From Candidatus Lucifugimonas marina (GTDB taxonomy: Bacteria; Chloroflexota; Dehalococcoidia; Lucifugimonadales; Lucifugimonadaceae): a stretch of DNA of 64,000 nt. Position numbers and translations under genes: made by a program. The notes below the pieces were generated by a model. It saw only the letters and a program-made list of their open reading frames with translations, did no database searches and was not told where the DNA came from. Positions 29,879 to 34,344 of this stretch are shown here, piece after piece (position 1 is the stretch's first letter; the number at the start of each line of letters is the position of its first letter). The stretch is taken from NCBI GenBank assembly GCA_029593915.1, contig CP046147.1:434001-498000 (forward strand), in the 5' to 3' direction.

Positions 29879-31174
29879 ATGGCAGAAATTCAGCCCTTTA
29901 GGGCGGTACGTTACAACCCTGATGTCGCTGGCGACGTGAGCCTGAACGTGTGCCCACCGTTCGATGTAATCACACCCCAGCTTCAGCAGGAGCTATACGC
30001 TCGTTCGAAATACAACATCGTGCGGCTTGAGTTGGCGCGCCGCGGGTTGACGATGGATCCGTACGACTCGGCTGCCGAAACAGCCCAGAACTGGATGAAT
30101 TCGGGCGCCCTGAAACACGAAGAAGCACCTTCGATTTATGTAACTGAGGAAGAGTTTGAGTATCAGGGCCAAACGCTGCTGCGCCGAGGGTTCGTTGCTG
30201 CGGTTCGATTGGAAGATTACGACCAAAAGGTAATTCTTCCGCATGAGGGAACCCGATCTGAATGGGTTGCCGACCGTGTGAAGCTGATGGGGGCTGCTCA
30301 ATCAAACTATAGCCCATTGCTATCGATATTCCGGGATGATCTACGTTCGAGCGTTGGCAATCTTGTTCGAGCCATTGCCGGTGGTGAACCGACCGCAGTG
30401 TTTACACCACCCGACATGCCACAACTCCGTTTGTGGAGGGTTTCGGATCCCGGAACAATTGGTGTTCTTCAAGAAGCACTGAAAGATTCCGAAGTATTTA
30501 TCGCAGACGGACATCACCGATACGAAGCAGCGCTTCGATATCGAGGCAGTGTGCGTGCCGAACGTGAAGTCGAGCACGACGAATCGATCAACTTCAGGAT
30601 AATGATGCTGGTTTCGTTCGATGAACCGGGCTTGATCACACGCGGCTACCACCGATTGATTGAGTCGGCGACTGATGCGGAATTCGCGGGGATCGTCTCT
30701 TCAGTTGAAAAGTCATGCGATCTTGAGGAATGGCTGCCTAGTGATGGTCTTTCCACCACCGAACAGATTGAAGAGTTTTCGGTTGCGCTTGGAGAACGCG
30801 AGGGCGATGAGGTCGTCTTTGGATTGTTCGCCAAAGAGCCAGGAAAGTTCCACATAGCTCGAATGACATCTCCGCCGCCTGCGGAAAACGCTCTAGAGAA
30901 TTCAGAGTATTCGCAGCTACACACACACATTCTCAGTTCTGTGATTTCCGAAGAACGAGAAGAGGCTGTGATTAGTCCGCATCACGACGCTGGACTAATA
31001 GCTCGTCAGATTGAAAGCGGTGAAGCTCGCATGACGTTCATCATGCGACCGGTGCCGTTGGACGAGTTTGTGTCGATAGTCACTCGGGGTTGGCGATTGC
31101 CGGCAAAGGCAACGAACTTCTACCCGAAGCCACCAGCTGGAGCCGTTATTCAACGATTCGGTGACGAGCTCTAA
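29879..31174 (+). CDS. DUF1015 family protein
   Basis: A 431-aa cytoplasmic protein of the DUF1015 family. It opens with the family signature I-Q-P-F-R-A-V-R-Y, then C-P-P-F-D-V-I, and later contains I-A-D-G-H-H-R-Y-E-A near residue 205. These proteins are common in anaerobes, Chloroflexota and Thermotogae, and their enzymatic role is not established; the conserved D-G-H-H-R-Y segment looks like an active or phosphate-binding site. The start is ATG 29879 and the length is normal. It is divergent from ligA and convergent with the lipoprotein gene at 31206. Confidence 0.88.
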   Translation: MAEIQPFRAVRYNPDVAGDVSLNVCPPFDVITPQLQQELYARSKYNIVRLELARRGLTMDPYDSAAETAQNWMNSGALKHEEAPSIYVTEEEFEYQGQTLLRRGFVAAVRLEDYDQKVILPHEGTRSEWVADRVKLMGAAQSNYSPLLSIFRDDLRSSVGNLVRAIAGGEPTAVFTPPDMPQLRLWRVSDPGTIGVLQEALKDSEVFIADGHHRYEAALRYRGSVRAEREVEHDESINFRIMMLVSFDEPGLITRGYHRLIESATDAEFAGIVSSVEKSCDLEEWLPSDGLSTTEQIEEFSVALGEREGDEVVFGLFAKEPGKFHIARMTSPPPAENALENSEYSQLHTHILSSVISEEREEAVISPHHDAGLIARQIESGEARMTFIMRPVPLDEFVSIVTRGWRLPAKATNFYPKPPAGAVIQRFGDEL

Positions 31175-31205: not shown

Positions 31206-31850
31206 TCAAGCAGTGCCCGATTTGAGTGATTCTTGAATTGCGTGAAGCACTTCGTTTATCGATGGTCGGTCTGCTGGCTCGGAAGCGACTAGTCGGGCAA
31301 TCAGACTACCGTGGGCGTCGAACACAAAACTAGCCGGGCTGGTATTGCCATCGTTGTCGAGATCGAGCACTTGCCAATCGCTAGCGACTACGTGAAGCGG
31401 GTCGGCGATCAGTGCGAACTCCAGTCCTAGTTCATCCCGCATATCGATCACCCGCGTTGGAAGATCGGCGACAATCACTACGACTTCAGCTTCGGATTTT
31501 TCGAACCGCTGGAGATTTGCCTGGATGTTTTTTAGCTGGCTGATGTCGAGTTCGTCGGTCGTGCTGGGTATGAACAATAGGTAGACCGGGACTGTTCCAA
31601 GAAGGTTTTCGAGTCGTACTTCTTCGTCGTCAATCGAAGCTACTGAGAACACAGGGGCGAGAGGTAATTTTTCGTATTCGGACGCTTCTGATGTTCCGAC
31701 CGTAGCGGAGGGACCTTCGGCGGTTGGGCTTGGGATTGGCGAAGGGGTGGGAGTTGGAGCTTGAGCAGAGGAATTTGAGCACGCGACTGCAGTCGCCAAC
31801 AGCGAAATAGCGATGATCAGCAGGGAGTATTTTCGAGAGAGTTCGTTCAA
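31206..31850 (-). CDS. Peroxiredoxin-fold lipoprotein without active-site cysteines
   Basis: A 214-aa exported lipoprotein: signal peptide with lipobox A-T-A-V-A-C near residue 24, a short Thr/Pro/Ser linker, then an AhpC/TSA-thioredoxin-like domain (about 65-205). The position where relatives carry the catalytic Cys reads F-I-P-S-T-T-D, and the mature domain has no cysteine at all, so it cannot be a thiol peroxidase. It retains the late family strand S-P-A-S-F-V-F-D. The gene lies downstream of the selenoprotein gene on the same strand, separated by a repeat. It may be a structural or binding partner, or a paralogue that lost catalysis. Confidence 0.75.
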   Translation of the reverse strand: MNELSRKYSLLIIAISLLATAVACSNSSAQAPTPTPSPIPSPTAEGPSATVGTSEASEYEKLPLAPVFSVASIDDEEVRLENLLGTVPVYLLFIPSTTDELDISQLKNIQANLQRFEKSEAEVVVIVADLPTRVIDMRDELGLEFALIADPLHVVASDWQVLDLDNDGNTSPASFVFDAHGSLIARLVASEPADRPSINEVLHAIQESLKSGTA

Positions 31851-32075: not shown

Positions 32076-32903
32076 TTATTTGAGTTTTTCGACTTGTTCG
32101 ATTATCTCTGAAGCTTCGACCTGATGCGTGTAGTTGAGTCCGACGCTTTTCCAGACGATTTCGCCATTGGTGTCGATCAAAAATACCGACGCCGAAGCTA
32201 GGCCATCGCCAAACAAGTTGAATACGCCGTACTGCTCGGGAATCGAAGTGTCGAGTGCTGTGAACAGCACCGGGAATTCATAGCCCTGCTGCTCGTACAG
32301 GCCGGCAGGACCGTTCAGGTTATCTGTGCTTATGGCAAGAATCTGAACACCTGCATCATCGAGTGCTGCTTGTTCTCTTTGCAGCTTCCCGAGCTGCCTT
32401 CTGCAGAATGTTCACCAGTAGGCGCGGTAGAACACAACAGCTACCGGTTTGTCGCCACGGAACTGTGAGAGGGTGTATTCATCGCCCTGAACAGATGGAA
32501 GCGTGAAATCTGGCGCGAGGTTCATCACAGGCGAAGGTGTGTTGATGAGAGGAGGTTCGGTCGGTTCGGCAGCCGCCTCTTGAGACGGTTTTTCGGTCGC
32601 TGTTGGATCGGGCGCAGGTATCGGAGTGTCAGAGACCTCTTCGATGTTGGACCCTGTCGGCTCTCGGCGGGGAGCAATTGCCATGGGCTCCGGCGATATG
32701 CTGTCAATTAGTTCGGGAGGATCGTTAGCGACCGTGGCAGGCGGTAGTGTCGGGCGTGCAGTTGCTTCCGTGGCTGGTGCCGTGTCTGGGCTGCTTGCCG
32801 CTGGTGTGCCGTCATCTGAACCGCACGCGACGACTAACGCGAACATCGCAAGCATCGATGCAAAAGTGATAAACCTTTTTGTTCGCAAAATCCTTGAACC
32901 CAT
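32076..32903 (-). CDS. Peroxiredoxin-like lipoprotein, probable selenoprotein (Sec at TGA 32412-32414)
   Basis: Read with TGA 32412-32414 as selenocysteine, this is a 275-aa lipoprotein. A signal peptide ends in lipobox A-L-V-V-A-C (Cys near residue 27), a Pro/Thr/Glu-rich linker follows to about 130, then a complete AhpC/TSA peroxiredoxin-like domain. The active site reads F-Y-R-A-Y-W-U-T-F-C-R-R-Q-L, with U at residue 164 exactly where relatives have the first Cys of W-C-x-F-C. Downstream the fold continues without another stop (I-L-A-I-S-T-D; A-S-V-F-L-I-D-T-N-G). A SECIS-like hairpin follows the TGA. Taken as two ORFs, the upstream one ends just before its catalytic residue and the downstream one is a headless fragment. 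It is probably an extracytoplasmic peroxide- or thiol-handling enzyme. selA, selB, selC and selD are not in this window. Confidence 0.85.
32381..32414 (-). promoter_or_regulatory. Sec TGA codon and candidate bacterial SECIS hairpin
   Basis: On the minus strand TGA (32414-32412) is followed after 14 bases by GCAGCT (32397-32392), loop CGGGA (32391-32387) and AGCTGC (32386-32381), a perfect 6-bp stem. The apical loop starts 20 bases after TGA, and a G is among its first two bases. These fit the published bacterial SECIS pattern (spacing about 16-37, short upper stem, early loop G). An outer TTCT/AGAA pairing extends it. Confidence 0.75.
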
Positions 32904-32961
32904 CGGTTCATCGTCCCAAATTTGTAGCCACGCTCTACTGCTTAAATCGAAAAGATATAAA

Positions 32962-32991
32962 GAAAAGCGCAGCCAATTGACTGCGCTTTTC
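32962..32991 (-). terminator. Rho-independent terminator after the aminotransferase gene
   Basis: GAAAAGCGCAG (32962-32972) and CTGCGCTTTTC (32981-32991) form a perfect 11-bp stem with an 8-base loop. On the minus strand it is followed by a T-rich run (TTTATATCTTTT), so it ends the aminotransferase transcript and insulates the selenoprotein gene's promoter. Confidence 0.85.
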
Positions 32992-33039
32992 TGATTCTTG
33001 CAATTGGATGCGACCGTTTGAAATAGGTCGCTATCTAAC

Positions 33040-34140
33040 TTACGAAGTCATCGCCTTGAGGGTTTCTTCTGCTGCCTTCAAAGCTTCGTCGATGTGGTCG
33101 GTTTCGACCCATCCCATGTGACCAACTCGGAAGATTTTTCCGACTAGCGATTTCTGCCCACCACCGAGAACCACGTTGTAGTTCTTGTTCACTTCACTGA
33201 GGAACGCTTTTCCGTCGAGACCTTCCGGCAATCGGATGGCGGTAACAGTGTTTGAAGCGTACTGCGGGTCTGGAAGCAGATCGAGTCCGAGAGCCTTCGC
33301 ACCGTCACGGGTGTGCTGTGCAATCTCGTGGTGGCGAGCAAAGACGTTTTCGATGCCTTCGTCGACCATCGACTGCAAGGCAACTTCGAGGGTGAACATT
33401 GCTGGCAGACACGGAGTGAACGGCGGTTGGCCGATTTTCAAATAATCTTCGTACTGCTGAACATCGAGGTAGTACTTCGGCGAGGTTGAAGTAGCGTGCG
33501 CCTTCCAAGCCTTGTCGGAGAACGTAACCATCGAGATTCCAGGGGGCGAAATCCAGCTCTTCTGGGAAGCGGTGGCAACAACGTCGATGCCCCATGCGTC
33601 GACAGCGATTGGAACTCCACCGGCACTGGATACAGCGTCGACGAGAATCAGGGCATCGGACTCTTCGTGGATTACCTGACACAGCTCTTCCAGCGGGTTA
33701 GATACACCAGTTGAGCTTTCGTTGTGGGTGAAGATCACAGCCTTCACATCGTTCATGCCTTTGAGGGTCTCGCGCACCTTGTCGAGATCGGCAGCCTGTC
33801 CGAGATCGAAGTTGAGTGTGGTGACGTCTCCGCCATATGCCTCAGCGATTTCAGCGAATCGTTCGCCGAATACACCGATGATGATCGACAGAACTTTGTC
33901 GCCGGGAGAAATCGTGTTCACGATGGCGGTTTCCATCGCACCGGTTCCCGACGAAGTGATGAAGTACGCATCGTTCTTAGTCATGAACACGGTCTTCAGA
34001 TTCTTGGTCATTCGATCAAGCATGTCGGCGTACTCTGGGCCGCGGTGGTTGATCATCTGCGATCCGGCGAGTTCTAGGACGTCGTCGGGCAGAGGTACTG
34101 GACCTGGGATTCGAAGGTTTGGCTGGTTCTGGCTGCTCAC
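33040..34140 (-). CDS. Class V aminotransferase (serine/alanine--glyoxylate type)
   Basis: A 366-aa PLP enzyme of the alanine-glyoxylate/serine-glyoxylate aminotransferase group. It starts with the family-like L-R-I-P-G-P-V-P-L-P, has T-S-S-G-T-G-A-M-E near 60-70 for PLP phosphate binding, V-D-A-V-S-S near 165 and the PLP lysine in A-S-Q-K-S-W near 190. The frame is open to TTG 34236, but GTG 34140 is chosen because the extra 32 residues match nothing in the family. Likely substrates are glyoxylate with Ala or Ser, as in glycine/serine metabolism or photorespiration-like salvage. The exact pair is not determined. Confidence 0.88.
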   Translation of the reverse strand: MSSQNQPNLRIPGPVPLPDDVLELAGSQMINHRGPEYADMLDRMTKNLKTVFMTKNDAYFITSSGTGAMETAIVNTISPGDKVLSIIIGVFGERFAEIAEAYGGDVTTLNFDLGQAADLDKVRETLKGMNDVKAVIFTHNESSTGVSNPLEELCQVIHEESDALILVDAVSSAGGVPIAVDAWGIDVVATASQKSWISPPGISMVTFSDKAWKAHATSTSPKYYLDVQQYEDYLKIGQPPFTPCLPAMFTLEVALQSMVDEGIENVFARHHEIAQHTRDGAKALGLDLLPDPQYASNTVTAIRLPEGLDGKAFLSEVNKNYNVVLGGGQKSLVGKIFRVGHMGWVETDHIDEALKAAEETLKAMTS

Positions 34141-34344
34141 CGGAGTGCTCGTTTCGTACGTGTACTGACTAAGTTTTTTGTGATTATCGGTCGTTCGTTG
34201 ATTCGCTTTATTGGGCGATTCGAAAATGACCAACAAGAATTCTACCGCTCAGTTTGTAAAACGGCAGTAAATTCTGCGAAAGGAGTTAGTGAGGAGTTTT
34301 TGTGGGGGCGGAATTCAGAAAGTTATTGCGGAAAAGCCGACAAT

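Follow-up and report, generated by a model that had tools for sequence, protein, structure and literature searches.

A probable selenocysteine-containing, peroxiredoxin-like lipoprotein gene in Candidatus Lucifugimonas marina and its relatives in Chloroflexota

Within the 64,000 nucleotides of Candidatus Lucifugimonas marina DNA that we analysed (the window), a gene with a peroxiredoxin (Prx)-like domain on the minus strand is divided by an in-frame TGA, which raises the question of whether this codon ends the gene or is read as selenocysteine (Sec). The ORF starts with ATG and runs for 163 codons to TGA 32412-32414 (upper ORF, 32412-32903), and past this codon the same frame continues for 111 further codons before it ends at TAA 32076-32078. 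An earlier note on this DNA had described two same-frame ORFs split by this TGA within 32076-32903, and a Y-W-U-T-F-C active site on read-through. The coordinates are correct, with the strand (minus) to be added, and the site reads AYW-U-TFC with U164 and C167; the 46 open codons that it counted after the TGA are in fact 47 sense codons before the first in-frame GTG. It had also predicted that gene callers would split the gene, and a standard ORF call does stop at the TGA and yields 163 aa. With positions 3-123 of its 124, the AhpC-TSA profile PF00578 covers residues 128-251 (81.3 bits against a cut-off of 26), in agreement with the claim of a fold that is complete on either side, and the TGA lies within the domain. 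The explanation that we favour is a selenoprotein that acts as an exported UxxC reductase or peroxidase, to which as a whole we give a probability of roughly 0.88. For its first part, a gene that encodes a selenoprotein with TGA 32412-32414 as Sec, the sequence evidence leaves us more confident still, and the call is sound because relatives share the in-frame TGA. The selenoprotein proposed by the earlier note is supported, among other things, by the Sec machinery of the genome, the shared TGA, a hairpin behind it and selection downstream of it.

Table 1 Coordinates of the gene, its parts and its neighbours in the window.
Feature	Position	Strand	Remarks
DUF1015 protein, convergent downstream neighbour	29879..31174	+	also in L098, L111
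AhpC/TSA lipoprotein paralogue, DxxD for UxxC	31206..31850	-	adjoins Sec gene in much of the genus
Sec-containing Prx-like predicted lipoprotein gene (Sec gene)	32076..32903	-	275 aa with TGA as Sec; TAA 32076-32078
AhpC-TSA (PF00578) domain	32151..32522	-	profile match, AlphaFold2 model and peroxiredoxin fold
SECIS-like hairpin GCAGCU-CGGGA-AGCUGC	32381..32397	-	6 bp, 5-nt loop, 20 nt from UGA to loop
C167, second residue of the U-x-x-C pair	32403..32405	-	invariant in alignments A2 (18 rows) and A4 (28 rows)
Probable Sec codon, in-frame TGA (U164)	32412..32414	-	TGA in 46/47 loci and 87/98 distinct copies
Pro/Thr/Ala/Glu-rich linker, ~100 residues	32523..32822	-	poorly conserved
Predicted signal sequence with lipobox-like LVVAC (C27)	32823..32903	-	sequence and Cys column conservation
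Terminator-like hairpin in the gap between aminotransferase and Sec gene	32961..32992	-	1 found in region, 2.3 expected in shuffles
Class-V aminotransferase, upstream neighbour	33040..34236	-	upstream of Sec gene(s) also in L098, L111, L114, L115

Read through, the gene would give a product that is exported and lipid-anchored via C27, and the motifs suggest that the Pro-rich linker would hold the domain off the membrane. The lipobox column has Cys in 16 of the 18 rows of A2 (in one of these, L055, probably through misalignment), and by this conserved lipobox-like motif, the one basis for the call, the product is probably a lipoprotein. An AlphaFold2 model of residues 118-275 has a mean pLDDT of 90.6 and places U164, its residue 47, directly before the helix 48-59. 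A fold search with the model returned peroxiredoxins at ranks 1 to 35 (Bcp4, PrxA, AhpE and others), and the AhpE/Bcp chains listed share the fold at TM-scores of 0.81-0.86 by query length. ResA, of the ResA/TlpA type, is matched in sequence as well as in fold but is first met at rank 36, below these 35 peroxiredoxins. Canonical peroxiredoxin sites include a catalytic Arg. In the AhpE alignment, the Pro is replaced by R160, the Thr by U164 and Arg116 by A238 (the number 116 comes from the title of 4xih, and the 5id2 row has R), and C167 falls on the Cys of FTGIC; we take this Cys to be the peroxidatic one and the Pro, Thr and Arg to be its helpers. The PxxxT/SxxC motif with Arg (PxxxTxxC in AhpE/Bcp) is therefore replaced at R160, U164 and A238, and membership in the canonical family was rejected. 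In the thioredoxin family protein 3kcm, U164 falls on the first Cys of WCxxC. Hence, the protein is Prx-like and not a peroxiredoxin: set against true peroxiredoxins, U occupies the place of the Thr in TxxC, C167 aligns with the peroxidatic Cys, and the site residues are replaced. The earlier note had put U at the first Cys of the family motif, which holds for the thioredoxin-like CxxC but not for true peroxiredoxins; its label of peroxiredoxin-like stands as far as the AhpC/TSA domain and the fold go, but does not extend to the canonical site residues.

We read the site as a U-x-x-C pair of the thioredoxin kind within a peroxiredoxin scaffold. In the predicted structure this U164-x-x-C167 pair would stand at the start of the active-site helix in a thioredoxin/peroxiredoxin-fold domain. 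The U164 selenolate would attack a disulfide or a hydroperoxide, C167 would resolve U164 as a selenenylsulfide, and an extracytoplasmic thiol donor would reset the pair. Such a cycle would make the product a cell-surface reductase or peroxidase and not a classical peroxiredoxin, and we consider an extracytoplasmic UxxC thiol/disulfide or peroxide reductase the likely function. The alternative that survives best keeps the selenoprotein but makes it a true peroxidase, with C167 as the peroxidatic and U164 as the resolving residue. It draws on the alignment of C167 with the peroxidatic Cys of AhpE and on the peroxiredoxins at the top of the fold search, but would have to work without the Pro, Thr and Arg of the AhpE site and sits poorly with a homologue (L084) that keeps U and has Asp for C167, so we hold it to be unlikely.

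The pair with U164 as the attacking residue presupposes that the TGA is translated. Compared with the 71% identical copy L029, dN/dS is 0.042 upstream of the TGA (46 domain codons) and 0.051 downstream of it (110 codons), and the corresponding values against L030 are 0.078 and 0.063. For L033 and L035, downstream dS is saturated and pN is 0.10 and 0.12. The part downstream of the TGA is under purifying selection, with constraint much as in the upstream half.

Relatives carry the same codon. Matches at E <= 1e-10 were found in 61 of 100 related genomes (own genome included), in which every listed match above 65 bits contains exactly one TGA and no other stop; across loci L029-L057, the best match at the codon is TGA in 29 of 29. 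A scan that was independent of the site took its query patterns from 26 Sec copies (A3), in each case from the part that follows C167, and covered one genome per species for approximately 85,000 species. It returned TGA in 46 of 47 loci and Cys (TGT) in one Anaerolineae record, figures that favour the Sec branch because the patterns were derived from Sec copies and would miss diverged Cys relatives. By record title, 45 of the 47 are Chloroflexota (Chloroflexi, Dehalococcoidia, SAR202 and Anaerolineae), one is Spirochaetaceae and one Alphaproteobacteria. The last (L101) is a 4,325-base contig; the tree places its Sec gene among the copies of the window's genus, and the contig is probably misbinned.

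Of 400 genomes drawn from across the phylum, 83 gave a match at E <= 1e-12, and the matches included TGA copies as well as stop-free ones; here the codon was read in the fetched loci L058-L086. Cys occupies the site in L076, L078, L079, L085 and L086 of this draw and in L132, and Ser occupies it in the Bcp-like L024 and L082. Pooling of all fetched loci at E <= 1e-12, with duplicates removed by the DNA around the site (loci from the whole-genome and contig collections overlap in genomes), leaves 98 distinct copies, and 87 of them have TGA at this codon, which excludes chance or read error. The earlier note had itself raised a read error as a danger to its claim, and the TGA proved common to many independent genomes. 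A further concern, homologues with neither Cys nor Sec at the site, dissolves for the closest non-Sec homologues, which have Cys, and applies to distant paralogues with Ser, Asp, Asn or Gly; these belong to other subfamilies and hence do not refute Sec. It had also proposed to ask whether close relatives share the TGA and whether most homologues have Cys; the TGA is shared, and Cys is found in few. In the tree, 82 Sec copies form one group (99/87) and L084 stands among redox-dead neighbours (91/79); given a long-branch warning and unsettled bootstrap values, we draw no argument on the origin or loss of Sec from it. The 96 plasmid records yielded only distant relatives, and in no record does a single place span 80% of the query.

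Behind the codon lies a SECIS-like hairpin (Table 1). Its core has an energy of -7.6 kcal/mol, and it is the minimum of a 48-nt stretch at -9.8 kcal/mol; in 81-nt and 57-nt folds of the window RNA other pairings are preferred over it. The bacterial SECIS model in the accessible text of a 2026 review consists of a loop of 3-9 nt, a stem of 4-16 bp, a G in the first two loop positions, a distance of 16-37 nt from the UGA and a minimum free energy of -7.5 kcal/mol or lower (PMC13188914), and the window hairpin falls within all of these limits. For the hairpin work, one set of TGA copies was used (E <= 1e-9), without L023, which duplicates the window locus, and without copies that have identical downstream DNA. 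When 41 copies are aligned without gaps, pairing between columns 18-23 and columns 29-34 is present in 96.3% of 246 cells, and 14 cells carry changes on both sides; neither value was reached in any of 500 shuffles, in a test for which the stem had been read off the same sequences. Sliding the partner by one column lowers pairing in these copies to approximately 32%. Of the five measures taken, the two coarser ones set the stem less apart: two pairs show double changes and three further pair types occur, counts also reached in 157 of the 500 shuffles. The most informative pair is that of column 21, the third base of a Gln codon, with column 31, at which a Leu codon begins. Both bases can change silently, and they are A-U in 25 copies, G-C in 11, G-U in 5 and A-C in none (Fisher p 1.4e-6, relatedness not corrected).

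A control by synonymous recoding, with the genes' own codon usage and 500 trials, covered 86 of the 87 TGA copies (one is cut by a contig end). All six pairs are formed in 61 of the 86, whereas the recoded genes average 5.7% and peak at 12.8%, so that no trial was as high. At least one of the six pairs is missing in 25 of the copies, and 13 have cores weaker than -4 kcal/mol. A G is present within the first two loop positions in all 86; in 85 position 2 is G and the base after it G or U, and the loop starts 20 nt after the UGA in the TGA copies. None of the 11 non-TGA copies has a stem with all six pairs. RNAalifold keeps four of the six pairs, and a search with Rfam over the 64-kb window gave one tRNA and no SECIS family. 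The hairpin is conserved beyond coding need. Together with the low dN/dS downstream (~0.05 against L029) and the TGA shared by most copies and nearly all scanned loci, this makes it very improbable that translation truly ends at the TGA, or that the codon is an error of sequencing, in a pseudogene or a gene for a truncated 163-residue protein, as the standard ORF call would suggest.

If the UGA at 32412-32414 is decoded as Sec, the source genome should hold the means. This genome is a single contig of 3,094,136 bases and 93% complete, and the complete set of selA, selB, selC and selD, which the earlier note had proposed to look for, is present. There is one tRNA-Sec gene (selC), which has the anticodon TCA and scores 66.4 bits where the cut-off is 47, and SelA (513.6 bits), SelB (343.9 bits, plus a wing domain) and SelD (365.5 bits) are matched, the last with an in-frame TGA of its own in CAG-U-AGK. 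RF01852 also matched L002 above its cut-off, and this locus turned out to be tRNA-Ser(GCT). AhpC-TSA is matched 13 times in the genome, and five of these genes have an in-frame TGA, in the contexts FTGGU, FSRGU, YWUTFC (the Sec gene), GWUGYC and YCUINC. The genome thus has several more probable selenoproteins, since further in-frame TGA codons occur in three Prx or Prx-like genes, the YCUINC protein and SelD (L136, L138, L140, L144 and L016).

SelB scores over its cut-off in 84 of the 100 related genomes (own genome included). A TGA homologue of at least 60 bits, a line of our own choice, occurs in 49 genomes, all 49 with SelB, and in none of the 16 genomes in which SelB stays below the cut-off; the remaining 35 possess SelB and lack a homologue of that score (Fisher p 7.8e-6, relatedness not corrected). 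The exception, at lower scores, is G086 (74% complete), with TGA matches of approximately 44 bits and no SelB over the cut-off. From sequence, covariation and genome content taken together, ribosomes would very probably insert Sec at this UGA by means of tRNA-Sec, SelB and the hairpin that lies 20 nt behind it.

The 46 long ORFs of the window (>= 150 aa) end in TAG (28), TAA (12) and TGA (6, the Sec codon included). The preferred stop among these ORFs is TAG, and TGA is the rarest. This rarity of TGA would suit a Sec-independent reassignment or read-through of the codon as one of the standard amino acids, for example Trp, but wholesale reassignment is rejected because TGA still ends five other long window ORFs, among them the neighbouring gene 31206-31850, for which 10 of 11 relatives have TAA or TAG there or within two codons and the eleventh has TGA. 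With the site aligned to Cys in the closest non-Sec homologues, tRNA-Sec, SelA, SelB and SelD in the genome, and in-frame TGA at redox positions of other Prx-like genes and of SelD, we regard such a reassignment as just as remote as a true stop.

Copies read as Sec genes also occur in rows. Three lie between the aminotransferase and DUF1015 genes in L111, and three copies are likewise present in L103, L105, L107, L108, L112 and L114. Adjacent TGA copies form 34 pairs in 20 loci, and five of these pairs are in frame without a stop. Because L045 and L115 come from the same genome, the five are three distinct joints in two proteins: L045/L115 with three domains in one frame, each with its own TGA and with no other stop between them, and L057 with two. 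The predicted products are probable multi-Sec fusion proteins. Such proteins are known in prokaryotes, with Table 1 rows of up to three Sec in the review (PMC13188914); its accessible text has none of the make of L045 or L057.

Between the Sec gene and DUF1015 in the window lies the paralogue 31206-31850. With matches kept at E <= 1e-20 and at least 45% identity, it is found in the Sec locus of 12 genomes of the genus, own genome included, and the other 11 copies are 48-65% identical to that of the window. The position of C167 holds Asp in all 12, and that of U164 holds Asp in nine and Ser, Asn and Gly in one each; no Cys occurs beyond the first 40 residues of the match in these genomes. The Sec loci L041, L043 and L044 of the genus have no match to the paralogue. 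The copy in L036 has an internal TAA near its start. L084 (G290, reverse strand) reads U-G-P-D, that is, it keeps the TGA and has Asp for the partner Cys. It may link the Sec copies with the redox-dead copies, for which its tree grouping (91/79) comes with the long-branch warning noted above.

The window gene belongs to an already published class, the Prx-like UxxC selenoproteins with PF00578, which the 2026 review lists among those 'predicted with high confidence' and for which it also quotes a PxxxTxxU motif among peroxiredoxin-type sites (PMC13188914). Earlier, 22 Prx-like selenoprotein sequences were reported from the Sargasso Sea (PMC1088965), and the 'Prx-like 1' family of the GOS survey had 225 Sec and 2,740 Cys sequences (PMC2398784). 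The likeness to these families, as far as their accessible texts go, lies in PF00578 and in UxxC (also UxxU) for TxxC/TxxU (PMC13188914, PMC1088965, PMC2398784), whereas the window gene differs as a predicted lipoprotein with a long linker. The excess of Cys in the GOS family contrasts with Sec in 46 of 47 loci of the window's branch, a comparison that is only rough because the samplings differ and the scan patterns came from Sec copies. In the open-access literature, as far as its accessible text goes, we found no report of an exported Chloroflexota branch with few Cys forms, rows, fusions and a redox-dead partner; one paper does mention Chloroflexi (PMC1794560). The Prx-like sequences from GOS or the Sargasso Sea may include unnamed members of the branch.

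Two curated families come closest in name and were rejected, as both stay below their score cut-offs. The SelL-related redox proteins (NF040769) give a weak match in 18 of 18 members scanned, and the window gene reaches 47.7 bits against a cut-off of 120 over profile positions 3-76 of 173 only; these proteins are presumably kin of SelL and SelU. The Rcas_1661 family (NF041057), a (seleno)lipoprotein with a thioredoxin-like fold by its name alone, is matched at 22.1 bits against 190. No NCBIfam model reaches its cut-off for the Sec gene, and therefore the C-terminal part, C167 included, may be lost in automated annotation.

SAR202- and Dehalococcoidia-type Chloroflexota are mostly uncultured, and a correct reading of the gene adds a probable exported Sec-dependent redox step to what their genomes encode. 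The less expected features are the few Cys forms near the branch, the relatives with several Sec domains, and the conserved paralogue with Asp for the redox Cys. With some hesitation, we suggest that SAR202-type and related Chloroflexota have a cell-surface Sec-dependent redox system. Its Prx-like lipoproteins would retain Sec across families with very few Cys forms, have been duplicated to form rows of up to three genes and, in at least two genomes, have been joined into single proteins that carry two or three Sec domains; in the window's genus they would be paired with the conserved DxxD paralogue, which may be a docking or regulatory partner. The few Cys forms near the branch make it a natural case for asking why Sec persists outside the membrane.

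The surroundings of the Sec gene are themselves partly conserved. L098 and L111 show the same order of aminotransferase, Sec gene and DUF1015, and in L098 no other ORF of at least 120 aa stands between the last two. The more distant L123 and L126 have another gene upstream of it.
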